From Actinopolyspora xinjiangensis (GTDB lineage Bacteria > Actinomycetota > Actinomycetes > Mycobacteriales > Pseudonocardiaceae), in contig NZ_FNJR01000003.1 of assembly GCF_900104475.1 (NCBI RefSeq), positions 412,917 to 476,916 of the forward strand: 64,000 bases of DNA, written 5' to 3'. The notes beneath the pieces are model-generated. The model saw only the letters and a list, made by a program, of their open reading frames with translations. It was not told the DNA's origin and ran no database searches. Shown here piece after piece: positions 30,663-62,447 of this stretch. Both the position numbers and the translations under genes were made by a program. Each line of letters starts with the position of its first letter. Position 1 is the first letter of the stretch.

Positions 30663-31289
30663 ATGGTGATCATGAGAGCCCGTGGGATCGTGGCACTGCT
30701 TCCCCTCGTCACAGTCGTGGCCATGACCGGCTGTGGCGCACGCCCGGCGCACCCCGGCGAGGGGACATCATCGCCGGCCACGACCACGGTCCGGCCGACT
30801 CCGACGACTGCCTCAGCGGCCGCGGACTGCCCCGAGACGGGGGTGCGTCTCACGACCGACTCGGTGGACGTGGCCATGGGACTGCGGGTGATGCGAGTCG
30901 AGCTGGCCAACTGCGGTGACCGGCCCTACGCACTGGACGGCTATCCACGCGTGCGCGTGCTGGACGAGGATCGGGAACCATTGGACGTCCGGGCCGAGCG
31001 GGGTTCGGCGGACATCGCCACTGTCGACGGTTTCGACGATCCCCCGGAGGCGATCACGCTGCGGCCGGGAGAGCACGCCGAGACCCTGCTGATGTGGCGC
31101 AACACCAATGCCAGTATGAACGCTCCGGTGGTCGGCGAGTACCTGCGGATCGCTCCGGCCCGAGGGCGGCCCTGGCAACCGGTGGTACCGGTCGGCCGGG
31201 AACGGGGATCGTCCCGGCAGGACCGCGACGCGATCACCATGAACCTCGGAAGCACCGCGAAGCTCGGTGTCCGCGCCTGGTACCGCTAG
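30663..31289 (+). CDS. DUF4232-like secreted lipoprotein
   Basis: 208 aa. The N-terminus is a lipoprotein signal (VALLPLVTVVAMTGC; lipid on the Cys), followed by a Thr/Pro/Ser-rich linker and a domain with paired Cys that resembles DUF4232 (DCPETGVRLTTDSVDVAMG, then ELANCGDRPYALDGYPRV). Two ATGs (30663, 30672) are possible. Its stop overlaps the stop of the convergent Rrf2 gene by four bases. Function unknown. Confidence 0.75.
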   Translation: MVIMRARGIVALLPLVTVVAMTGCGARPAHPGEGTSSPATTTVRPTPTTASAAADCPETGVRLTTDSVDVAMGLRVMRVELANCGDRPYALDGYPRVRVLDEDREPLDVRAERGSADIATVDGFDDPPEAITLRPGEHAETLLMWRNTNASMNAPVVGEYLRIAPARGRPWQPVVPVGRERGSSRQDRDAITMNLGSTAKLGVRAWYR

Positions 31290-31777
31290 CGCCGGTCGGG
31301 CGAAGCGACCTCGCGAAGTCCGGCGTCGTCCCCGCTCGGGTTTCCCTCGCGGTCGAGACGCCGGAGCTCGCGGACTCCGTCGGCGAGCGTGCGATCGCCG
31401 AGCGCGTCGAGCACGGCCCGTTCCGCCTCCCTGGTCAGCTCGGCGAAATAGGCCTGCGTGTTCGCGGCGACCCGGCAGTCGTGCTCGTCACCGGAGCGGC
31501 AGTTCCAGAGCGGCTTGTCCCCCGACGAGCAGCGGTAGACCTCGGCGAGGGTGATCTCCTCCGGGGACCGCGCCAGCCGGGTCCCGCCCGTGCGCCCCTT
31601 GGAGCAGACCACGAGCTCGGCCCGCGCCAGCGGGAGGACCAGTTTGCGCACCAGGCTCGCGTTGGTGCCCATCCGCTCGGCGAGCTGTGCGGAGCTCAGC
31701 GTCGGGTTTCCCTCCTCCTCGGCGAGGGCGAGGATCAACATCGCCATGAGAGCGCTGGAGAAGCGGATGTCCAGCAC
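31286..31777 (-). CDS. Rrf2-family transcriptional regulator
   Basis: 163 aa. An N-terminal winged helix (SSAQLAERMGTNASLVRKLVLPL) and the wing KGRTGGTRLARSPEEITLAEVYR are typical of Rrf2. Three Cys (C-x8-C-x7-C, in YRCSSGDKPLWNC and the following EHDC) could bind a [2Fe-2S] cluster or act as thiol sensors. I chose the GTG at 31777, nine bases after GGAGG. It diverges from an ene-reductase gene, the likely target. Confidence 0.88.
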   Translation of the reverse strand: MLDIRFSSALMAMLILALAEEEGNPTLSSAQLAERMGTNASLVRKLVLPLARAELVVCSKGRTGGTRLARSPEEITLAEVYRCSSGDKPLWNCRSGDEHDCRVAANTQAYFAELTREAERAVLDALGDRTLADGVRELRRLDREGNPSGDDAGLREVASPDRR

Positions 31778-31871
31778 GCTGGCAGCACCTCCCTCCGTCG
31801 GCCGAACCGGTGGCTGCCACCTGGTGTTCTCCCAGGCTAACAGGGCCGCCGTGGCCACCCGAACCCGAAAG

Positions 31872-31890
31872 TGTATTTTTAAAAAGAACA
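31872..31890. promoter_or_regulatory. AT-rich dyad, probable Rrf2 operator
   Basis: TGTATTTTTAAAAAGAACA is an imperfect palindrome in an AT-rich island between the divergent Rrf2 and Old Yellow Enzyme genes, 34 bases before the latter's ATG. Confidence 0.55.
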
Positions 31891-31923
31891 TTTTGTTTTC
31901 GCGTGCCCCAGGAGGACGCCCAC

Positions 31924-33045
31924 ATGTCCGCTCGCGCAGCGCAGGCGCTGTCCCGACCGCTCACCCTCGGCTCTCTGGAACTGCCGAACCGGCTGGTCAT
32001 GGCCCCGATGACCCGCGCCCAGTCCCCCGGCGGGGTTCCCGACGAGAACGTCGCCGCCTACTACGCCCGGCGTGCCGCCGCCGGTACCGGTCTGATCATC
32101 ACCGAGGGCACCTACGTCGACCACCCCTCGGCCGGTGACCAGGAGAACGTGCCGCGCTTCCACGGTGAGCGGGCACTGGCGGGCTGGAGCGAGGTCGTCT
32201 CCGCCGTCCACGCGCACGACGCGAAGATCATGCCGCAGCTGTGGCATGTCGGCATCCAGCGACGGGCGGGCAAACCGCCGGTCCCCGAGGCCCCCTCGGT
32301 CGGCCCCTCCGGCATCGCGCTGGACGGGACCCCGGAAGCCGGCGAGGAACTCTCGCTGGCCGACGTCGAACGCCTCATCGAGGCCTTCGCCGAAGCCGCG
32401 CGGCAGGCAGAGCGCATCGGCTTCGACGGCGTGGAGCTCCACGGCGCGCACGGCTACCTGATCGACCAGTTCCTCTGGGGACGCACCAACCGGCGCACCG
32501 ACGCCTACGGCGGTTCCCCGCTGGAGCGCACCAGATTCGCCGCCGACATCGTCACGGCGGTGCGCGAGCGGGTCTCGGCCGAGTTCCCCGTCGTGCTGCG
32601 GTTCTCGCAGTGGAAGGCCGACAACTACGACGCCAAACTCGCCGAGACCCCGGACGAGCTGCGGACGATGCTCGCCCCGCTGAGCGAGGCCGGGGTGGAC
32701 GCCTTCCACGCTTCGGGGCGCCGCTACTGGGAACCCGAGTTCCCCGAGTCCGACCCGAACCTCAACATCGGCGGTTGGACCCGCAAGCTCACCGGCAAGC
32801 CGGTCATCACCGTGGGCTCGGTCGGCTTGGACGCGGTGTTCGACCCCGCCACCCTCGGCGACGGCGCGGGCACCAACGTGGCCAGCGTCGAAGGGCTCGC
32901 CGAACGTCTGGAGCGGGAGGAGTTCGACCTCGTCGCCGTCGGCCGCGCGCTGCTGGCCGACCCGGAGTGGAGCCGGAAGGTACTGAACGGCCGCGAGGGC
33001 GAACTCGTGCCGTTCACCCGCGAGGCGATCGCCACGCTGTACTGA
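31924..33045 (+). CDS. Old Yellow Enzyme-type FMN ene-reductase
   Basis: 373 aa, FMN TIM barrel. LVMAPMTRAQS near the N-terminus, the substrate-binding block GFDGVELHGAHGYLIDQFL (H-G-A-H) and RTDAYGGS are diagnostic of the NemA/12-oxophytodienoate reductase family. It reduces activated C=C or nitro groups with NAD(P)H. AGGAGG precedes the ATG at 31924. Pairing with a divergent Cys-rich Rrf2 regulator suggests induction by electrophiles, as in other OYE systems. Confidence 0.92.
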   Translation: MSARAAQALSRPLTLGSLELPNRLVMAPMTRAQSPGGVPDENVAAYYARRAAAGTGLIITEGTYVDHPSAGDQENVPRFHGERALAGWSEVVSAVHAHDAKIMPQLWHVGIQRRAGKPPVPEAPSVGPSGIALDGTPEAGEELSLADVERLIEAFAEAARQAERIGFDGVELHGAHGYLIDQFLWGRTNRRTDAYGGSPLERTRFAADIVTAVRERVSAEFPVVLRFSQWKADNYDAKLAETPDELRTMLAPLSEAGVDAFHASGRRYWEPEFPESDPNLNIGGWTRKLTGKPVITVGSVGLDAVFDPATLGDGAGTNVASVEGLAERLEREEFDLVAVGRALLADPEWSRKVLNGREGELVPFTREAIATLY

Positions 33046-33098: not shown

Positions 33099-34157
33099 TC
33101 ATCCGGCCCCACCGAGCGGCGTCGTCACCCGTTCCCGCTCACCGCGGGCGCCGGGTGGGGCGCACGCGCGGTCCCAGCGCATGCGCGACCACGGCATCGT
33201 GAGCTCCGTGGTGCTGTCCACCGGACGCGGTGCGAGCTCGGCGATGTCCTCGGCCGCCTCGGCACGGGAGAACACCGCTTCGTTGTAGCGGTGCCCCGTG
33301 TCGGCCGCGATGAACAGCACCGGGCCGGACGCCCCCTCGTACCGTTCCCAGCGCGCGGCCAGATACGCCGCACCGCTGGACAGCCCCGCGAACACGGCGT
33401 GCCTACGGAGCAGGTCAGTGCTGCCCGAGAGCGCGGTGTCGAAGGAGATCCAGTGCAACGTGTCGTAGGCGGTGTGATCGACGTTGCCGAACGGGATGGA
33501 GCTGCCGATCCCGGCGATGATCATTTCACTGTCGGAGACGTGCTCGCTGCCGAAGGTGACGCTGCCGAACGGCTGAACCCCCACCAGGGTGACCGCCGTG
33601 TCGACGCCGCGCAGGTACTTCGCCAGCGCTCCCGTGGAAGCGCCGGACCCGACGCCGCCGACGATGGTGAGCGAGTCGCTGTCCAGTTCGGCGCGGATGC
33701 GATCCGCGATCGTGCGATACCCGAGGTAGTGAATGTCGTCGTGGTACTGCCGCATCCAGTGGTAGTCCGGATTCTCGTGCAGCAGCTGCCGCACCCGACG
33801 CACCCGCAGGCTCTGGTCGAGCTTGAGGTCCGCCGACGGTTCGACCCGCTCCAGGCGGCACCCCAGCAGGACGAGTTGGTTGTGCAGAGCGGAGTCGATC
33901 GTCGTCGAACCCACGATGTGGCAGCCGAGGCCGTACCTGTGGCAGGCCACCGCGAGCGCGTACGCGTAGATGCCGCTGGAGCTGTCCAACAGGGTGTCGC
34001 CGGGACGCACCCTTCCCCGTTCGAGTAATCGCTCGACCGCGGCCAGGGCGGACACGACCTTCATCGTCTCAAACCGAAGGCATACGAGTCCCCTTTCGAG
34101 GCGGATCAGGTCGGGGCGTGCGATCGCGTCCGCGATGTGTTCGTCCATGATCACCAT
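33099..34157 (-). CDS. PLP fold-II enzyme, cysteine-synthase/SbnA-like
   Basis: About 352 aa. The lysine that should hold PLP lies in RFETMKVVSALAA (about residue 33). The substrate loop is SSSGIYAYALA in place of the usual SGNTG, and GGVGSGASTG cradles the phosphate. The N-terminal 30 residues of ordinary cysteine synthases are missing, and the substrate loop is changed, so a beta-replacement on an unusual phosphorylated amino acid is likely. Starts at 34160 (GTG), 34157 or 34148 (ATG) are all possible. It overlaps the end of the kinase gene by about 90 bases. I infer it uses the kinase product to build a diamino-acid-like chelator. Confidence 0.8.
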   Translation of the reverse strand: MVIMDEHIADAIARPDLIRLERGLVCLRFETMKVVSALAAVERLLERGRVRPGDTLLDSSSGIYAYALAVACHRYGLGCHIVGSTTIDSALHNQLVLLGCRLERVEPSADLKLDQSLRVRRVRQLLHENPDYHWMRQYHDDIHYLGYRTIADRIRAELDSDSLTIVGGVGSGASTGALAKYLRGVDTAVTLVGVQPFGSVTFGSEHVSDSEMIIAGIGSSIPFGNVDHTAYDTLHWISFDTALSGSTDLLRRHAVFAGLSSGAAYLAARWERYEGASGPVLFIAADTGHRYNEAVFSRAEAAEDIAELAPRPVDSTTELTMPWSRMRWDRACAPPGARGERERVTTPLGGAG

Positions 34158-35106
34158 CACCGTTCCGGGAACGAGAGCGAGTGCTGAACACTCGTGTGCT
34201 GGGAATGTCGTCGCGGGCCAGTTCGAGAAGACATGCCCGTATCCGGGCCCCCACTCCGGGGGAGCTCGGGTCGAAGATCAGCCCGGCGACATTGCCGCTG
34301 TGCGCGACCTGCAGACCGACCGCTCCGACCCGCTCGGCGATGTCCAGGAGCGAGTTCAGCTGGGTCTTGTCGAGGACACGCTGGTTGTTCCGGGCGCTCT
34401 CGGTACTGACCCGACCGAGCAGGGCGGTGTCCGAGCGGGCCACGGCTCGCCGCAGCAGTACGCGCAGCCGTTCGCCTGCCCGTACATCCGCCTCGCGAAC
34501 GGGGGCGGCACCCAGCTTCAGGGTGTCGACGCCGGTCGCACCCTCGGTGAGGCATCCCACCACCAGTGCCGGGGGAAGCCGGGCACCGAGCTCTTCGAGG
34601 ACTCTGCCCTGCCGTTGCGCGAACAGCAGGGGGCGGTCGCCGAACATCAGCGGGTCGCAGGCGTGTTCGGCCGACACGGCGATTCCCGAGGCGGTCTCCA
34701 CGGACAGGTGCGTACCGTAGGCGTCCGCCACGGCGCGAATGGCGGCCAGGACGTCGGCGCTCGACGAGCCCATCCCGAGTCCGTCGGGAATCTCGCTGCT
34801 CAGGGACAGTTGTCCGCCGCACGGTGCCCGAGCCGTGATGTTTCCGCAGAGTTGGCAGGTCAGGGTGGCCGCTCGTCGCGCTTTGTCCCGGCCGTCCGGA
34901 GTGGTGGTGATGGCCTCGGGGGCGGTGTCCGGCTCGGGCACGAAGACGGCTCTGCTGCGGGGGCCGGGCAGGGGCAGCGTGACCAGGCCTCGGCAGCCGC
35001 GTCCCCGTTCGTCGAGGAAGGCTCCCTGCAGGATCTCACCGTGGTGGCAGCTGGACCGGCCCGTCCCGGTCCTCGGTGGAGCTTTCCGGTCGGTGGATGC
35101 GTTCAT
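34069..35106 (-). CDS. PduX-like GHMP kinase (threonine/serine-type kinase)
   Basis: 345 aa. GHMP motifs: SSCHHGEILQG (residues 18-28) as in PduX, the ATP loop IPDGLGMGSSSADVLAAIRA from residue 106, and the late VAHSGNVAGLIFD. PduX phosphorylates L-threonine for cobalamin synthesis, but no cobalamin genes or riboswitch are present. Here it precedes a cysteine-synthase-like enzyme that would act on an O-phospho amino acid. The start overlaps the DUF364 stop by four bases (ATGA). The Arg-rich last 40 residues overlap the next gene and are probably disordered. Confidence 0.82.
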   Translation of the reverse strand: MNASTDRKAPPRTGTGRSSCHHGEILQGAFLDERGRGCRGLVTLPLPGPRSRAVFVPEPDTAPEAITTTPDGRDKARRAATLTCQLCGNITARAPCGGQLSLSSEIPDGLGMGSSSADVLAAIRAVADAYGTHLSVETASGIAVSAEHACDPLMFGDRPLLFAQRQGRVLEELGARLPPALVVGCLTEGATGVDTLKLGAAPVREADVRAGERLRVLLRRAVARSDTALLGRVSTESARNNQRVLDKTQLNSLLDIAERVGAVGLQVAHSGNVAGLIFDPSSPGVGARIRACLLELARDDIPSTRVFSTRSRSRNGDGDHGRTHRGRDRTPRPDPPRKGTRMPSV

Positions 35107-35921
35107 GAGGAGTGACCGGCCCGGTAGCGGTACAGAGTGGTCGGTCCCGAGTCGAACTGGGAGAACGGGAAAGGCTCGGCGGAAAGCGCGGTGACGCCGG
35201 AGCCGAGGAAGGCCCGTGCGACGGCGGCCCCCGACTGGGCGTAGATGGTCAGCGGCACGTCCCGCTGCCCGCAGTGCCGCAGTATCTCCTCGAAGGTCCC
35301 GTTGCCCAGAGTCATACCGGTGGCCACGACGGCCTCGGCGGGTTCGAGCACTTCGCTCATGACCGAGGTGACAGGCCCACCGTCCACGGTGGTGTCGAGG
35401 TTGTAGTCACAGGGCAGGCAGACGCACCCTCGCTCGTGCAGGGCCGCCACGAGCGGGGAGACGACGCCGATGAGCGCCACCCTGGTTCCCGGGGCGGCGT
35501 CGAGAAGCCCCGTGATCGCTTCGTCCCGTGCCCGGGCACGTTGCTCGGGAGTGCCCGACGGTAGTGCGACGGCTTCCGCGTCGGCCCGGTCGCGGTGGTG
35601 CTCGACCTCGGTGAGGTAGGCGTCGAGCGCGGCGACGCGCAGCGCGAGCGGTGCGTCGCGCATCAGAGCGTCGAGTCGGCTGCCCGAAGCCTCCGAGCAG
35701 ACGTTCGTAGCGAGTTCGCCCGCCTCGAAGGCGCAGGCGCCGTAGGAGCGTCCGACTCGGACGAGGACGTACCGGCTGCGGGACGTGGTGTTCGATCCTG
35801 CCAGCCGGGTGCCGTGCTGGAGCCAGAACACGCTGGTGGCGACCAGTTCACTCGGATGTGGCCCCCTGGAGCCACCGAGCGCCTCGGCGAAGAGAGCGTC
35901 GAGCGTCGCTGTTTCGGTCAT
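35103..35921 (-). CDS. DUF364 (putative heavy-metal chelation domain) protein
   Basis: 272 aa. The C-terminal Rossmann-like part shows the DUF364 pattern: TRVALIGVVSPLVAALHERG, then EPAEAVVATGMTLGNGTFEE, YAQSGAAVARAFLGSGVTAL and FPFSQFD. The N-terminal part corresponds to the DUF4213 region. The family has been proposed to handle heavy metals and often sits beside FecCD-type importers. Here it lies 46 bases after the binding-protein gene and is translationally coupled to the kinase. It could release metal from, or modify, the imported chelate; that is inference. Confidence 0.78.
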   Translation of the reverse strand: MTETATLDALFAEALGGSRGPHPSELVATSVFWLQHGTRLAGSNTTSRSRYVLVRVGRSYGACAFEAGELATNVCSEASGSRLDALMRDAPLALRVAALDAYLTEVEHHRDRADAEAVALPSGTPEQRARARDEAITGLLDAAPGTRVALIGVVSPLVAALHERGCVCLPCDYNLDTTVDGGPVTSVMSEVLEPAEAVVATGMTLGNGTFEEILRHCGQRDVPLTIYAQSGAAVARAFLGSGVTALSAEPFPFSQFDSGPTTLYRYRAGHSS

Positions 35922-35967
35922 GCTGCTGCCTTTCCGGAGCGGTTGGCCGGGAGAGCGGAATCGTGGG

Positions 35968-36957
35968 CTAGCGCCCGATGGAACGCAGGTAGTCCGCGAG
36001 CCTCTCGGCGGCGGCGATATTGCGGGGGCCGCTGACGGCGGCTCCGTAGTCGATGACGTGGAACCGGTCGTTCCTGACCGCGGGGGTCCGCGCCAGCGGG
36101 GGGAACGACTTCAGGAACTCGATCTTGTCCTCGACGGGTTCGTCCCCGTAGTCGACGACGGTGATGACTTCCGGATCGGCCCGCACGACGGATTCCCAGC
36201 CGACCGTGGTCCAGCGCTTGGCGAGGTCGTGCAGGATGTTGCGACCTCCCGCCAGGGAGACGATGGAGTCGGGGGCCGCTTGGGCCCCGGATGTGAACGG
36301 TTTGTCGGTTCCGGAGTCGTAGATGAAGACCCGAGGTGGCGTGCCTTCCGGTTGTCGCTCGCGAAGATCCCGGGCACGCCGCTTCAGATCCGCGACCACC
36401 CGTTGGGCGCGCTCCTCGACGCGGAAGATCTTCCCGAGCTGGCGCAGATCGGTGTAGAGCGCTTCCAGTGGGGGGACGCGCACGAGGTCGGAGCCGTAGT
36501 TGAAGCAGCTCTCGGTGTGCTGGTAGCTGCGTATGCCCAGGGAGTCGAGCTTGCTCGGGGTGATCCCCCGGGACTGGCTGAAACCGGACTCCCAACCGGC
36601 CAGGACCCAGTCCGCTTTCGCGTCGAGGACGACCTCGAGGCTGAGCACGTCGGTGCTCAGCGTTTCGACGGAGCGGTAGTCCTCCCGCCACGGGGAACGT
36701 TTCACCGACGGGTCGGCGGTACTGGGCATGACGATGCCCCGCATGCGATCGGCCAGTCCGAGGGCGAACATCTTCTCGGTGCTGCTCATGTCATAGGCCA
36801 CCGGGCGCCGTGGTTCGGGATATTCGATCGTCCGCCCGCAGTTTTCGATGGTGACCGTGCCGGACTCCCCGTTCGAGGCCGGCGTGATGTCGGCTCCGCA
36901 GGCGGTGGCGAGTAACGAGGTGGTCAGCAGGATCGGGACGGCCAGGCGTGATGCCAT
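35968..36957 (-). CDS. FecB/BtuF-type substrate-binding lipoprotein
   Basis: 329 aa. A lipoprotein signal ends LLATAC, then a helical-backbone binding fold: RPVAYDMSSTEKMFALGLADRM, RVFIYDSGTDKPFTSG, SIVSLAGGRNILHDL and the closing YGAAVSGPRNIAAAERLADYL. This class III periplasmic-binding type serves iron-siderophore, haem, B12 or other metal-chelate import. AAGGAGGAG precedes the ATG. It is grouped with the ATPase and permease genes upstream. Confidence 0.9.
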   Translation of the reverse strand: MASRLAVPILLTTSLLATACGADITPASNGESGTVTIENCGRTIEYPEPRRPVAYDMSSTEKMFALGLADRMRGIVMPSTADPSVKRSPWREDYRSVETLSTDVLSLEVVLDAKADWVLAGWESGFSQSRGITPSKLDSLGIRSYQHTESCFNYGSDLVRVPPLEALYTDLRQLGKIFRVEERAQRVVADLKRRARDLRERQPEGTPPRVFIYDSGTDKPFTSGAQAAPDSIVSLAGGRNILHDLAKRWTTVGWESVVRADPEVITVVDYGDEPVEDKIEFLKSFPPLARTPAVRNDRFHVIDYGAAVSGPRNIAAAERLADYLRSIGR

Positions 36958-36988
36958 CGCGGGTACTCCTCCTTGTTCACAGCGGTGG

Positions 36989-37750
36989 TCAGATGTCGTA
37001 GTGCAACTGAGGGACGCCGGTGCGCGGGTGGTGAACGACCGAGGGGGTCACGCCGAACGCCTCGTTGATCACCTCGGGGGTGAGGACCTCGGCGGGTGGG
37101 CCCAGGTGCAGCACTGTTCCGCGGGCGAGCACGGCCAGCCGGTCGCACGTGGCCGCCGCGAGGTTGAGGTCGTGCATGGCGATCAGCACGGTGAGCGACT
37201 CCGCGCGTAGCTGGCGGAGCAGCTGGAGCTGGTGGTGTATGTCGAGGTGGTTGGTCGGTTCGTCGAGGACCAGCACACGGGGTCGCTGCGCGAAGGCGCG
37301 GGCGAGCACCACTCGCTGTCGCTCGCCACCGGACAACGACAGCACTCCCCGGTCGGCCAGGTGAGCGACGTCGGCACGCAGCATCGCCTCGTCGCGGACG
37401 GCGCGCTCCTCGGCGGTCATCGGCCGGTTCCCACGGTGGTGTGGAAAACGGCCGAGCTCGACGACTTCGGCGACGGTGAAGTCGAGGTCGTTGCCGCTTT
37501 CCTGGGGGACGGCGGCGATGGACCGCGCGGACGTACGCGGGTCGAGGACGGCGAGGTCGGTGCCGTCGAGCAGCACGGCTCCCCCGCTCGGTCGCAGCGC
37601 CCGGTAGACGCACCGCAACGCGGTGGACTTGCCGCTCCCGTTGGGCCCCACGAACCCGAGCACTTCCCCTTCCTCCGCTTTGACGTTCAGGTCGTGGACG
37701 AGCTCGGCCCCGGCGAGACGCACGGACACGGCATCGAAAGCGATCGACAT
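36989..37750 (-). CDS. FecE-type ABC transporter ATPase
   Basis: 253 aa. Walker A GPNGSGKST at residues 35-43, signature LSGGERQRVVLARA near residue 138, Walker B VLVLDEPTNHLD. Members power metal-chelate uptake through FecCD-type permeases. Its ATG follows the permease stop directly, and the binding-protein gene starts 32 bases after its own stop. Confidence 0.94.
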   Translation of the reverse strand: MSIAFDAVSVRLAGAELVHDLNVKAEEGEVLGFVGPNGSGKSTALRCVYRALRPSGGAVLLDGTDLAVLDPRTSARSIAAVPQESGNDLDFTVAEVVELGRFPHHRGNRPMTAEERAVRDEAMLRADVAHLADRGVLSLSGGERQRVVLARAFAQRPRVLVLDEPTNHLDIHHQLQLLRQLRAESLTVLIAMHDLNLAAATCDRLAVLARGTVLHLGPPAEVLTPEVINEAFGVTPSVVHHPRTGVPQLHYDI

Positions 37751-38827
37751 TCACCGACCTCCGAACAGGTAGCCACGACGTCGCAGCAGCGTGATGAACA
37801 CCGGAACTCCGATCAGAGCGGTGATCACGCCGAGGGGCAGCTCACGGGGTGCGAACAACGTCCGTGAGGCGAGATCGACCCAGACGAGGAAGATCGCGCC
37901 GATCAGCGGGGCGAGGGTCAGAACCCGGCGATGGTTCGCACCGACCAGCAGGCGCACGAGGTGCGGGATGACGAGACCGACGAAACCGACCGCGCCGCTG
38001 ACCGCGACCAGGCAGCCGGTCACGATCGCCGTGAACAGGAAGAGTCTCTTGCGAACGGCGGTGGCGTCCATGCCCAGGCCCGCGGCGGTTTCGTCGCCGA
38101 GCGCCAGCACGTCGAGGGCACGGCAGTTCCGCAGGAGCAGCACCGTGGCGAGGGCGACCGTGGCAGCGGCCAACGGGAGGCTGGACCACGTGGCGCTGCC
38201 CAGGCTGCCCATCAGCCAGAACAGGACCGTGCGGGCGGAATCGCTGAAGGGGGCGAAGAACACGATCGCGCTCATCAACGCCTGGAATCCGTAGGCGAGG
38301 GCGACGCCCGTGAGCACGAGGCGAAGCGGGGTGAGCCCGGACTTGCCGCGTGCGGCGAGGTAAACGAGTGCCGAGGCCCCCAGCGCCCCCAGCAGCGCGG
38401 CGGTGGACAGCGCGTACACCCCGAGTCCGGCGAACAGCCCGAAGGAGACCACGGCGCTGGCGCCGACCGAGGCTCCGGACGAGACGCCGAGGATGAAGGG
38501 GTCGGCGAGCGCGTTGCGCACCGTGGCCTGTATCGCCACGCCGACGACACTGAGTCCCGCCCCCACCACCGCCGCGAGCAGCACTCGCGGGGTGCGTACC
38601 TGCCAGATGATCGCGTACCCGCTGGCCTCCCCCGCGTCGACGCTCCCACCGGTGATCGCTGCCACCAGGTAGCGCACGGTCTCGGGCAGCGGCACGGGGG
38701 TGGGGCCGAGAGCGATGCCGATCAGGATCGAACCCGCCAGAACCACCACCAACGGCAGAACCGCCGTGATCAGGCCTCTTTCCCTTCCGCTCACCGGGAG
38801 GGCCGACTGTGTCTCCGAAGTGGTCAC
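37751..38827 (-). CDS. FecCD-type ABC transporter permease
   Basis: 358 aa with about ten hydrophobic helices. RTPRVLLAAVVGAGLSVVGV with ALADPFILGVSSGASVGA, and GFVGLVIPHLVRLLVG with PRELPLGVITALIGVPVFI, are hallmark FecCD/BtuC blocks. I set the start at the GTG 38827, with GGAG eight bases upstream; the frame remains open to 38908. It is the first gene of the minus-strand operon and begins 86 bases from the Fur/Zur-like palindrome. Only one permease gene is present, so it should form a homodimer. Confidence 0.92.
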   Translation of the reverse strand: MTTSETQSALPVSGRERGLITAVLPLVVVLAGSILIGIALGPTPVPLPETVRYLVAAITGGSVDAGEASGYAIIWQVRTPRVLLAAVVGAGLSVVGVAIQATVRNALADPFILGVSSGASVGASAVVSFGLFAGLGVYALSTAALLGALGASALVYLAARGKSGLTPLRLVLTGVALAYGFQALMSAIVFFAPFSDSARTVLFWLMGSLGSATWSSLPLAAATVALATVLLLRNCRALDVLALGDETAAGLGMDATAVRKRLFLFTAIVTGCLVAVSGAVGFVGLVIPHLVRLLVGANHRRVLTLAPLIGAIFLVWVDLASRTLFAPRELPLGVITALIGVPVFITLLRRRGYLFGGR

Positions 38828-38898
38828 TGTTCGCGCTCCGTGTTCGAAGCTCCGCGGTGGTCGGACGAAGGGGGTCGAGGACGGATGCCGCGGTCGCT

Positions 38899-38912
38899 TA
38901 CGATGCATCGTA
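38899..38912. promoter_or_regulatory. Perfect 14-bp palindrome in the divergent promoter
   Basis: TACGATGCATCGTA, perfectly self-complementary, directly next to the Fur/Zur-like box. It could be a second operator or part of an extended one. Confidence 0.45.
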
Positions 38913-38931
38913 GAAAACGATAATCATTTTC
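38913..38931. promoter_or_regulatory. Fur/Zur-type metal-responsive operator
   Basis: GAAAACGATAATCATTTTC is a 9-1-9 inverted repeat with one mismatch, closely resembling actinobacterial Zur boxes (TGAAAATGATTTTCA-like) and Fur boxes. It does not resemble the DtxR/IdeR consensus. It lies between the divergent importer operon and the MFS exporter and could control both. Confidence 0.65.
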
Positions 38932-39067
38932 GTCTACGGTTGATGTTCATTGGGAGAACCGTCACAGCGAGGACACGTCGCGCGGCCGCCGTGGTATCCG
39001 AAATGGTCGGTCAGGTTCGTTCTCCAGTGCGGCACCGCCGTGGACACGTGTGACGGGAGCAGATCCA

Positions 39068-40396
39068 GTGACATCCGCACCTACCGGACCAGAGGAAACC
39101 CCGCCGCGAAGGTCGCTGTTCCGCGAGCCGAGCTTCCTGCGGTTCTGGGCCGGAACGACCGCTTCCGGGCTCGCCACGTGGGCACTGCCCTTCGTGCTCG
39201 GCCTGGCCGTGCTCGACCGCACCATCGGCGCCGCGGCGCTGGGGGTGCTGCTCGCGACGCGGACAGCTGGCTTCCTGCTCGCCGTCCCTCTCGGCGGAGT
39301 ACTGGCCGACCGCTACTCCAGCCGGAGGGTGGTGGCGCTGTCGGGAGTCACCGCCGCTGTAGCCACCGTGGTCCTCACGATCGGCTCGGGCACCTCGCAA
39401 CCGTTGATGGCGGCGGCAGCCGCCGCGGTCGGAGCCGGACAGGGAGCCTGCAGGCCGGCGTTCCAGGCCCTGACCGCCGAGGTCGTCGACCCCGCCCGAC
39501 GGCAACGGGCCAACGCGGCGCGCACCCTGTCGGTACGGGTGACCACACTGGTCGCGCCCGGTCTGACGGCACTGGCGGCCACCGCCGTCGACACCGACGC
39601 GCTGTTGCTGCTCACCGGGGTCCTCTGGTTGATGGCGGCCTGGCTTCCACCGGCCGGGCGAAAGAACACCGGTGCCCCCACGCGTGACGGCGGCATGCCG
39701 TTCGTCTCCGAGTTCACCGAGGGACTGCGCGAAGCACGCAGGCACCCCTGGTTCCTGGCCGGTCTGGCCGCGTTGGCCACCGTCATCACCACCGGCTATT
39801 CCGCCACCGGGGTCCTCCTACCGCTGATCAGCCGCGATCGCTACGACACCGAAGCGGTGCTGGCGGCCGCGCTGACCGCTTACACGGCGGGGGCGCTGCT
39901 CGGGGCGCTGCTCGTAGGACGGTGGCGGCCCCGTTCACAGGGCTTCTGGGCGCTGGCCGGGCTGGCCTGTTACGGCTTCGCCCCGCTCGGATTGCTACTG
40001 CCGCTTCCGGCCGCACTGCTGGTGGCGGGTTACGTGCTCGCTGGGATCGGGATCGAGCTGTTCAACGTCCCGTGGTTCACCGCGACCCAACGCGAGGTCG
40101 CCCCGGACAAGCTGGCTCGCGTGTCCGCCCTGGACTTCCTGGTCTCCTACGGACTGGCACCGTTGGGACTGGCGCTGATCGCGCCCGCCATGACGCTCGT
40201 CGGGAACTTCTGGGTGCTGGTGGTGTGCGCCGTGGCGTGCTTCGCGGCCCCCGCCCTGGCCGCTCTGGCCCCCGGAGCACGGCACTTCGCCCAGCCCACC
40301 AGGGTCGAGGAGGCGGCGGGGCGGACGCCGACCGTCCGGGAGGTGAGCTCGGCGAGAAGCCGGCCCGAGGGTACCGGGGAGTCGCACGAGGGGTGA
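39068..40396 (+). CDS. MFS exporter (EntS-like)
   Basis: 442 aa with about twelve hydrophobic helices and the MFS loop GGVLADRYSSRRVV between helices 2 and 3. It resembles the EntS/drug-proton antiporter branch that exports siderophores. I chose the GTG at 39068 after GGGAGC rather than the GTG at 39050. It diverges from the importer-biosynthesis operon across the Fur/Zur-like box. This arrangement suggests export of the molecule that the FecBCD system later recovers. Confidence 0.85.
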   Translation: MTSAPTGPEETPPRRSLFREPSFLRFWAGTTASGLATWALPFVLGLAVLDRTIGAAALGVLLATRTAGFLLAVPLGGVLADRYSSRRVVALSGVTAAVATVVLTIGSGTSQPLMAAAAAAVGAGQGACRPAFQALTAEVVDPARRQRANAARTLSVRVTTLVAPGLTALAATAVDTDALLLLTGVLWLMAAWLPPAGRKNTGAPTRDGGMPFVSEFTEGLREARRHPWFLAGLAALATVITTGYSATGVLLPLISRDRYDTEAVLAAALTAYTAGALLGALLVGRWRPRSQGFWALAGLACYGFAPLGLLLPLPAALLVAGYVLAGIGIELFNVPWFTATQREVAPDKLARVSALDFLVSYGLAPLGLALIAPAMTLVGNFWVLVVCAVACFAAPALAALAPGARHFAQPTRVEEAAGRTPTVREVSSARSRPEGTGESHEG

Positions 40397-40656: not shown

Positions 40657-41365
40657 TCAGTTCGCGGAAGTGGTCGGCCGCGCCGCCCGCTTCCACGGCC
40701 AGGTGATCAACGCCCAGGCGGCGACGCCCCACCGCGAACTCCACGGCGAGGTACCACGGCCCCATGACATCCAGCAGTGACGGATTGTTCGGTTCGGCGT
40801 TGCGGAAGCCGTAGTTCGTGCCGGTGACGCTGTTGCCCCCGAACACGACCACACCTCAGGCGACCGTGACGAGGACGGTGGTCGCCAGAGCGCGCCGCCC
40901 GGAGTGGAGCCCCGGTCCTCAGGCCAGGTAGATGGCCGCCCACACCACGAGGGTGCGCTGGCCCCAGAAATCGACGAAGTCGGCGTGGGGAAACCCCGGC
41001 GCGTCCAGGGCAGGAGTGAGCATGGCCCGGGGATCGAGCGTGAGTCCCCAGTAGTGCGTCAGCGAGTGCGCCCACCACCGACGCGTCCACAACGCGCAGA
41101 TGGCCACGATCCAGGCGAGGTCGGACAGGTGCGGCGGCGAGACTCCGATGTCCCACTGCGGGGGCAGCACCCGGTAGATCCGCATCGCGAGCGCGAACAG
41201 CCCCAGCGGCAGCGCGAACGTCCTGGTGAACAGCACCTCCGAGCGCGTTCCGCGCTGTCGGCGTCCGGCCCGGACGAGCAGCACCGCCCCTACTGCCGCC
41301 ACCCCGAGGTCCCAGCGTGAGACGCCGTGGGGAATGGAGGTTTCCTGCGCCCACGACGGGTCCAC
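40657..41365 (-). pseudogene. Decayed TMEM164/TIGR02206-family membrane protein
   Basis: The first frame gives a multi-helix protein with LSDLAWIVAICALW and the later SLTHYWGLTLDPRAMLTPAL block, then PHADFVDFWGQRTLVVWAAIYLA. TGA codons follow at 40921-40919 and 40858-40856. Between and after them the same frame continues as family sequence (GTNYGFRNAEPNNPSLLDVM, then GPWYLAVEF). A one-base insertion near 40720 then shifts to WGVAAWALITWPWKRAAR. From my knowledge of the family, both TGA codons sit where Trp is expected. Two stops and a frameshift mean no normal product. Confidence 0.75.
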
Positions 41366-61034: not shown

Positions 61035-62447
61035 TCACCGGCCGATCTCGACGTTCTCCAACACGCCGAGCGCGTCGGGGGTGAGCACGGCGGCGGAGTA
61101 GTACGCGCTGACCAGGTACGAGGTGACGGCCCTGTCGTCGATGCCCATGAACCGCACGTTGAGGCCGGGGGCGTACTCGTCGGGGATGCCGGTCTGGTGC
61201 AGCCCGACCACGCCCTGGTGCTCCGCTCCGATCCGCATGACCAGGACCGAGCTGGTGTTTCTCTCGCTGATGGGGATCTTGTCGCAGGGCAGCAGCGGCA
61301 CACCGCGCCAGGATGTCACCTGGGTTCCGCGCACGTCGACGGTCTCCGGGTAGAGACCCCGGCGGTTGCACTCGCGGCCGAACGCGGCGATGGTGCGCGG
61401 GTGCGCCAGGAAGAACTCGGACTTGCGACGCCGGGACAGCAGCTCGTCGATATCGCCCGGCGTGGGTGGACCTCCGGTGGTTTGGAGGCGCTGGCGCAGG
61501 TCGGCGTTGTGCAGCAGCCCGAACTCGCGGTTGTTGACCAGGTCCGCCTCCTGCTGTTCGCGCAGTTCTTCCACCGTGAGCCGCAGCTGCTGGTCGAGCT
61601 GGTTCATCGGCTCGCTGTAGAGGTCGTCGACCCGGGTGTGCACGCGCAGGATGGTCTGGGAGACGCTGAGCTCGTACTCGCGGGGCGCGAGGTCGTAATC
61701 GACGAACGTACCGGGCAGCTCGGACTCGCCCTCGTGCCCGGAGGCCAGCCGCACGGCGGCTTCACCGTGCTTGTTGTGCTCGGGCAGGGTTCGGCTTCGC
61801 ACCTGTTCGAGGTGGGTGCGCAACGGCTCGGAACGGCCGGTGAGCTCGTTCAGGGCACCGCGGGAGAGAGTCAGCACGGTGCACGGGGTCAGCGCGGTGG
61901 CCGTGACCTGCCAGGTGTCCCGGCTGCCGGTGAGGACGTGCTCGCCGAGGTGGTCGCCATCGGCGAGCACGTCCCGGGAGACCTCGTCTCCGTAGGGCCC
62001 CGGCGTGCTGGTGCTGACCTTGCCGTGGGCCAGCAGTACCAGCTCGTCGGCGGGCAGGCCCGCCGACGTGATGTTCTCACCCGGCGCGTAGTGGTGCTGG
62101 GCGAACCTGTCGGCCAGGGCGGTCAGCACCGTCTCGTCGTCGAGTTCGCGCAGGGACGGTATCTCGCGGAGTTCCGGCGGCAGCACGCGAACCTGGTCTC
62201 CGGTGTTGGAGAACGTCAGGCGGCCGTCGCCGAGCTGGTAGGTCAGCCGCCGGTTGACCCGGTAGGAACCGGCGGTGGTCTCGACCCAGGGCAGCATGCG
62301 CAGCAGCCACCTCGGGCTGATCGACCGCATCTGCGGCGGTGTTTTCGTGGTGGTGGCCAGGTTGCGGGCCGCGGCCGTGCCCAGGCTGAGCTGTCCCCGC
62401 CCCTGGGACCGGGAAGTGGCGGTCGCGTTCGATGCGGTCTCGGTCAT
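61035..62447 (-). CDS. Family 2B encapsulin shell protein with cyclic-nucleotide-binding-like domain
   Basis: 470 aa. The N-terminal arm [20 protein letters not shown] and [20 protein letters not shown] match family 2 encapsulins. Residues about 85-220 form an inserted cNMP-binding-like domain ([20 protein letters not shown], then [15 protein letters not shown]). The HK97-type remainder includes [20 protein letters not shown] and [20 protein letters not shown], and ends [20 protein letters not shown]. Such proteins assemble into nanocompartments that enclose terpene enzymes. It is encoded between the cyclase and the prenyl synthase, its likely cargo or partners. Confidence 0.9.

Follow-up and report, generated by a model that had tools for sequence, protein, structure and literature searches.

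A putative Zur-repressed locus for the synthesis, export and re-import of a small metal chelator in Actinopolyspora xinjiangensis and other actinomycetes

What does a compact bacterial locus do that joins a metal-chelate importer and an exporter to a kinase, a pyridoxal phosphate (PLP) enzyme and a protein of the DUF364 family? This question is raised by seven genes in a stretch of 64,000 nucleotides from Actinopolyspora xinjiangensis (hereafter the window; positions 412917-476916 of the source contig, C32, in a genome of 5.04 Mb). We consider it quite probable that they form a Zur-repressed system that makes, exports and re-imports a small metal chelator independently of nonribosomal peptide synthetases (NRPS), with zinc as the most likely metal. 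The initial annotation had already read the genes as a metallophore system; to this reading the sequences add a Zur-type box, a methyltransferase in the pathway and a wide distribution of the cluster in actinomycetes. No description of the cluster or its chemistry was found in the accessible portions of the open-access literature.

All seven genes lie at the positions first assigned to them and each scores above its curated Pfam cut-off (Table 1). Six are tightly packed on the minus strand, with gaps of 0, 31, 46, -4 and -80 bases (the last when the PLP gene starts at 34148, its likely start), a spacing compatible with a single transcription unit. The exporter of the major facilitator superfamily (MFS) is divergent, and one palindrome lies between both units. 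Coordinates, Pfam matches and palindrome confirm the arrangement proposed in the initial annotation, of six packed genes and a divergent exporter that share an operator; its gene list holds for these seven but was incomplete, since the set also includes a methyltransferase gene that lies outside the window and has the same operator. GTG 38827 is a more probable start for the permease than ATG 38908, as it falls within a stretch conserved in three Actinopolyspora sequences. Furthermore, PF01032 and PF01497 are both present, that is, two of the three families (PF00593, PF01032, PF01497) of which two define a siderophore-like transporter set, a rule described as separating siderophore clusters from other NRPS clusters (PMC12971057).

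The operator points to control by metal. Among 9-1-9 palindromes in the 64 kb, GAAAACGATAATCATTTTC is the only one in which 8 or more of the 9 pairs match and 11 or more of the 19 positions are A/T, and dinucleotide shuffling of the window, repeated 100 times, produced nothing comparable. It is conserved as a block in three Actinopolyspora sequences, beside another palindrome, whose core is ATGCAT; the ATGCATC core of this neighbour, TACGATGCATCGTA, is retained in two Actinopolyspora, and a second regulator may bind there. The motif derived for Streptomyces coelicolor Zur by chromatin immunoprecipitation (ChIP) is tGaNNatSatNNtCa (PMC5472717). We counted its occurrences in the 470 bases upstream of the MFS gene in 64 loci of relatives (in L044 this stretch runs off the contig), and found a Zur-type site with at most one mismatch in 23 and with at most two in 57. 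The rest of the same DNA, which is more coding, predicts about 0.5 and about 4.5 loci, respectively, and when the upstream stretches were dinucleotide-shuffled ten times the counts were 0-1 loci (mean 0.1) and 0-8 loci (mean 2.5); L044 entered the shuffles as a whole locus, the effect of which could only raise the shuffled counts.

Within the A. xinjiangensis genome, the 21-base pattern TGAWAAYGATWWTCRTTWTCA has five sites at up to three mismatches and zero with the reversed control. Three sites are found at up to two mismatches: this cluster, the methyltransferase gene and the region upstream of a gene for a ZnuA-family protein (PF01297, 210 bits), whose best NCBIfam match is a zinc-transporter model, below cut-off. 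The ATPase gene that follows it matches AztA best, likewise below cut-off. Three Fur-family proteins are encoded in the genome, one of which is a Zur orthologue, with 192 bits to FurB 2o03, 189 to 3mwm and 188 to 7vo0, the next score being 81 (2o03 is from M. tuberculosis, and 3mwm and 7vo0 are Zur of S. coelicolor); an ArsR-family gene stands immediately upstream of its gene. A Zur-type box common to this locus and a zinc-uptake-type gene, in a genome with a Zur orthologue, places the locus in a predicted Zur regulon. Given the Zur-type box, zinc is therefore our first guess for the metal, and the earlier idea of one metal-controlled system gains support both from the operator common to the zinc-importer-type gene and the methyltransferase and from the box that precedes most MFS genes of the relatives.

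It is unlikely that the same machinery instead serves iron, cobalt, nickel or copper, or that a different Fur-family protein recognizes the box. Ferric chelates are the best-known cargo of FecBCD systems, the boxes of Fur-family proteins resemble each other, and one of the two further members of this family in the genome closely resembles 3eyy, whose database entry names it a putative iron uptake regulator; against this, a matching operator precedes the zinc-type importer gene and the operator copy at the methyltransferase gene fits the 15-base ChIP-defined Zur motif with 0 mismatches. Iron control through DtxR was rejected, the window having no DtxR/IdeR box within three mismatches of the consensus.

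The shared operator led us from the putative Zur-controlled cluster to the methyltransferase gene. The only other place with at most three mismatches to the 19-base operator, at C32:29460, is directly upstream of this gene (C32:28710-29456), which is separated from the cluster by about 420 kb. A class-I methyltransferase gene lies between DUF364 and an operator in the relatives L013-L016, and 32 of the 80 best loci described below have it in the cluster. Because the shared operator led to the methyltransferase, and because relatives keep it inside the cluster, the sequences describe a single regulon divided between two genomic places. In a set of 148 genomes, 6 have the kinase-type cluster, and strong homologues (E <1e-35) were found in 5 of these 6 and in 0 of the 142 others; 14 further genomes have weak matches (1e-13 to 1e-5). 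Of 40 genomes sampled from the same family, 14 have the PLP enzyme, and the gene is present in 4 of these and in none of the 26 others (Fisher p 0.011). The protein resembles HemK/PrmC-type enzymes below cut-off, and its match to PF05175 is weak: L015 alone passes the cut-off, the L013 and A. xinjiangensis copies score below it, and L014 has no match.

Table 1. Features of the putative metallophore locus (window positions; bits are Pfam scores)
Feature	Position	Strand	Evidence and remarks
SbnA-like fold-type-II PLP enzyme	33099..34148	-	PF00291 (PALP) 109 bits; open frame to 34160
GHMP-superfamily kinase	34069..35106	-	PF00288 (GHMP_kinases_N) 46 bits; 80-base overlap with PLP gene
DUF364 protein	35103..35921	-	PF04016 41.1 bits, cut-off 23
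FecB-type binding protein of metal-chelate importer	35968..36957	-	PF01497 (Peripla_BP_2) 76 bits
Importer ATPase	36989..37750	-	PF00005 (ABC_tran) 108 bits
FecCD-type importer permease	37751..38908	-	PF01032 288 bits
Second perfect palindrome TACGATGCATCGTA	38899..38912		abuts operator
Zur-type operator between divergent units (sequence-based)	38913..38931		palindrome GAAAACGATAATCATTTTC
MFS exporter	39050..40396	+	PF07690 (MFS_1) 114 bits; divergent

Is this gene set a peculiarity of one genome? A DUF364 search of 148 genomes of the same class gave a match in nine, the A. xinjiangensis genome included. Five of the other eight loci (L012-L016) combine DUF364, GHMP kinase, PLP enzyme and MFS exporter at 52-70% identity, and FecBCD is within the examined stretch of three of these five (L012, L013, L015); the PLP gene of L014 is near the contig start and that of L016 is interrupted by the contig end. 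An alignment scan of genome contigs with the PLP enzyme returned at least 566 confirmed relatives, of which the best 80 loci, all from actinomycetes by title, were analysed; some are cut by contig ends and they may overlap with the 148-genome set. DUF364 is present in 74 of them, kinase, permease and binding protein in 69 each, and the MFS exporter in 64. For 59 of the 80 at least 9 kb is available on either side (presence being called by a bit-score threshold), and here DUF364, kinase and PLP enzyme occur together in 54, with the MFS exporter in 52, and with both MFS and FecBCD in 49. The core trio is recovered in most of these loci, and the retention of exporter and importer with it speaks for the model of export and re-import in the initial annotation.

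FecBCD as such is present in 55 of the 59 loci, and its binding proteins split into two groups, 27 loci with at least 45% identity and 28 below; two importer kinds therefore serve one cluster type. Among the matches listed, the nearest named relatives at the locus are Actinopolyspora mzabensis and A. righensis, with a PLP enzyme 86-87% identical, and the hosts include many Streptomyces, Nocardiopsis, Amycolatopsis, Actinopolyspora and relatives; the MFS exporter is 60-70% identical beyond Actinopolyspora. Clustering of 704 neighbouring non-core open reading frames (ORFs) from the best 80 loci, predicted with a simple codon-position gene caller that may miss small genes, gave no further family in more than 6 loci and no NRPS, lyase or synthetase family that accompanies the set. 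One neighbour family, found in 4 loci (L089, L094, L101, L104), opens with a GELFQG-type motif resembling that of the kinase, of which it appears to be a divergent form.

Which chemistry could the core trio perform? For the PLP enzyme, the best NCBIfam profile is SbnA (TIGR03945, 133 bits, the equivalog cut-off of 350 not being reached). Its predicted fold, with a predicted local distance difference test (pLDDT) score of 85, has SbnA 5d84 as first match, and the listed top matches are all fold-type-II enzymes. In the numbering of the 353-aa open frame, the Schiff-base lysine K34 is found in 73 of 73 sequences and the SSSGIY loop is present. SbnA residues K47, R132, Q151 and Y152 correspond to K34, R119, Q138 and Y139, which are conserved in at least 97% of the 73 sequences; the equivalences were counted by hand on the profile alignment, and T74, S75, L78 and Q151 agree with the numbering of PMC12414870. 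Selective binding of O-phosphoserine by SbnA is credited to R132, Y152 and S185 (PMC12414870), and two of these three residues, as R119 and Y139, are kept.

The GHMP kinase carries the motifs HHGE..QG and G.G.GSS..D, the residues of which are at least 97% conserved in 67 homologues, and it may be a kinase of L-serine or a related amino acid. All its NCBIfam matches (mevalonate, homoserine and shikimate kinases) are below cut-off. In 10 of 10 plasmid regions inspected, out of 30 PLP-enzyme records, a GHMP-type kinase adjoins the PLP gene (called by Pfam in 6 and by annotation in 4, these 4 being also kinase-search matches), and a DUF364 gene was not seen in 8 of the 10. Conversely, out of 98 kinase records, six plasmid regions selected through the kinase were inspected, and a cysteine-synthase-like gene adjoins the kinase in three and does not in the other three. 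The pair occurs in contexts as different as a Streptomyces NRPS locus and rhizobial plasmids that also carry ATP-grasp and argininosuccinate-lyase-like genes, and because these are so varied the kinase and PLP enzyme look like a portable module. The two-step pathway of kinase and then PLP enzyme, as first suggested, is strengthened by this recurrence and by the selectivity residues that are kept.

Several of these plasmid loci deserve a description of their own. Plasmids of Sinorhizobium, Mesorhizobium, Azospirillum and Sulfuriferula (L139, L140, L141, L146) carry a GHMP-type kinase with cysteine-synthase-like and lyase/ATP-grasp genes, and in Sinorhizobium L139 the lyase and ATP-grasp domains are fused in one protein. 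On the Mesorhizobium plasmid L148, kinase and PLP enzyme are beside a transketolase, a threonine-synthase-like gene and an acyl-homoserine-lactone synthase; the Paracoccus plasmid L150 has transketolase, kinase and acyl-homoserine-lactone synthase without the PLP gene.

Such contexts bear on whether the product could be an exported antimetabolite or signal, with FecBCD as a convenience neighbour or as an importer of foreign chelates. In its favour, pairs stand beside ATP-grasp, argininosuccinate-lyase-like and NRPS genes, and one is near LuxR/LuxI-type genes. We regard this reading as distinctly improbable in view of the Zur-type boxes, the retention of FecBCD in nearly all loci with full flanks and the two binding-protein groups within the same cluster.

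The kinase had also been called PduX-like. This label did not hold up, since no PduX match was obtained in NCBIfam or the Protein Data Bank (PDB), in which the presence of PduX entries was not checked; the likeness comes from a GE-x-x-QG-type motif of PduX. A cobalamin-related set, in which the kinase makes L-threonine phosphate and FecBCD imports a corrinoid, could account for the matches of permease and ATPase to BtuC and corrinoid ATPase models of NCBIfam (below cut-off), for one weak PDB match of the methyltransferase to a precorrin enzyme, and for the comparison of a DUF364 structure with precorrin methyltransferases (PMC2954201). We rejected it as very improbable: the window has no cobalamin riboswitch, the kinase has no PduX profile match, a Zur-type box is at the promoter, and neither an exporter nor an SbnA-like enzyme is known to take part in B12 assembly.

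The DUF364 protein probably is an enzyme. Its model (pLDDT 90.9) has as best PDB matches both solved DUF364 proteins, 3l5o and 3npg, at 13-16% identity and template modelling (TM) scores of 0.55-0.65. Dhaf4260 (3l5o) belongs to the same Pfam family, PF04016, and has the same overall fold, yet is only 13-14% identical in the fold alignment. Neither the window protein nor Dhaf4260 is known to have an enzyme activity. The authors of the Dhaf4260 structure proposed an enzyme associated with metal transporters, with an inter-domain active site (PMC2954201), and no enzyme activity is reported in the accessible portions of the open-access literature that names the family (including PMC2954201 and PMC4046660).

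Under the zinc-chelator reading, zinc shortage would make Zur leave its box and so de-repress the cluster. The GHMP kinase would then phosphorylate the hydroxyl of L-serine, or of a close hydroxy-amino acid, giving O-phosphoserine, from which the SbnA-like enzyme would eliminate phosphate to form aminoacrylate and add an amine, yielding an N-substituted 2,3-diaminopropionate, an aminocarboxylate. DUF364, together with the S-adenosylmethionine-dependent methyltransferase where present, would complete the chelator; the MFS protein would export it, it would bind Zn(II) outside and the FecBCD system would re-import the zinc-chelator complex. The amine partner, the action of DUF364 and the metal are the least certain parts of this scheme.

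Several findings weigh against this reading. The window operator has 2 mismatches to the 15-base Zur ChIP motif, and this motif is unselective in the A. xinjiangensis genome, with 75 matches at up to one mismatch compared with 8 for the reversed control; because it is too unselective genome-wide, we relied on the 21-base pattern together with position and upstream-region controls. Some genomes with the cluster lack the methyltransferase (1 of 6, and 10 of the 14 PLP-enzyme genomes in the same-family sample). An association between importer type and methyltransferase (19 of 27 versus 2 of 28 loci, Fisher p ~1e-6) was dropped, being unsupported once relatedness is allowed for: it comes down to 2 independent pairs on well-supported branches, or 6 on all. 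For the PLP enzyme, O-ureidoserine, cysteine and cystathionine synthases follow closely behind SbnA in the fold search, a single-sequence search ranks cystathionine and cysteine synthases first, many of them above SbnA, and a family-profile search puts the uncharacterised PLP protein 9k2p just above SbnA, which is second. SbnA S185, the third selectivity residue, is replaced by Gly, and the loop asparagine N77 by Ile. Finally, NCBIfam and PDB searches gave no close relative of the kinase whose substrate is known, and kinase homologues occur without a PLP gene in L150, L151 and L153.

DUF364 also occurs in a second architecture. Three loci of the 148-genome set (L017-L019) and two plasmid loci (L154, L155) combine DUF364, 37-42% identical, with an SbnA-/cysteine-synthase-like enzyme and an ATP-grasp ligase. 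Pfam identifies an MFS exporter in L017 and L018, and both a methyltransferase and a family-5 (SBP_bac_5) binding protein in L019 and L155; the annotation of L154 and L155 lists an MFS exporter and a dipeptide epimerase. Zur-type boxes with at most two mismatches were found in L017 and L018 and none in L019. These loci possibly encode a related, dipeptide-based metallophore. We tentatively hypothesize, granting this somewhat less than an even chance, that DUF364 represents a novel class of enzymes in metallophore assembly and builds, with the kinase, the SbnA-like enzyme and the PrmC-like methyltransferase, an undescribed diaminopropionate-based zincophore; that a related chelator is made by a sister pathway, where an amino-acid ligase and a dipeptide epimerase replace the kinase and an SBP_bac_5 importer replaces FecBCD; and that the pathways with DUF364 and an SbnA-like enzyme form an actinomycete zincophore class.

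How do these loci compare with known systems? The [S,S]-ethylenediaminedisuccinate (EDDS) zincophore of Amycolatopsis japonicum is likewise from an actinomycete, independent of NRPS and of NRPS-independent siderophore (NIS) synthetases, and was located via Zur-binding motifs (PMC4993170, PMC6103462). Compared by description, not through the aes proteins, it differs from the present set, which has kinase, DUF364 and methyltransferase and no other family in more than 6 of the 80 loci. The EDDS genes reportedly include an SbnA-like enzyme. In staphyloferrin B synthesis, a dedicated serine kinase, SbnI, which is redundant with primary metabolism, precedes the O-phosphoserine-dependent SbnA (PMC12414870). 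The window PLP enzyme, for which SbnA is the best profile and first fold match, lacks its Ser185, and the kinase here would take the place of SbnI. SbnI is ParB-like, whereas the present kinase is of the GHMP type. No SbnB or siderophore synthetase was found by Pfam among the seven window genes, and staphyloferrin B is under Fur (PMC12414870) whereas a Zur-type box is found here. Opine-like zincophore clusters (staphylopine, pseudopaline and actinomycete relatives) are zinc-linked, with MFS or EamA efflux and a FecCD or dipeptide-type importer, and the actinomycete ones with FecCD alone have a methyltransferase in addition (PMC7438024). In place of the opine enzymes, the present set has kinase, PLP enzyme and DUF364, and no nicotianamine-synthase-like (CntL) or opine dehydrogenase (CntM) Pfam domain was detected in the seven genes, the rest of the genome not having been searched.

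Beside the cluster, divergent genes for an Rrf2-family regulator and an Old Yellow Enzyme (window 31286-33045) were excluded from the set because they accompany it in only two Actinopolyspora loci of the best 80. Elsewhere in the window are an ORF with a TMEM164-family domain on the minus strand (40919-41365; 62 bits, cut-off 25) and a match to the Rfam family Sernc350, a Saccharopolyspora small RNA (61894-62405; 82 bits, gathering score 50).

Few chemistries are known by which secreted small molecules scavenge zinc. A compact pathway that dispenses with NRPS, NIS synthetase and opine enzymes would add one, and detection rules based on NRPS genes would probably miss its cluster. Furthermore, it would provide a first testable function for DUF364, a family with two solved structures.

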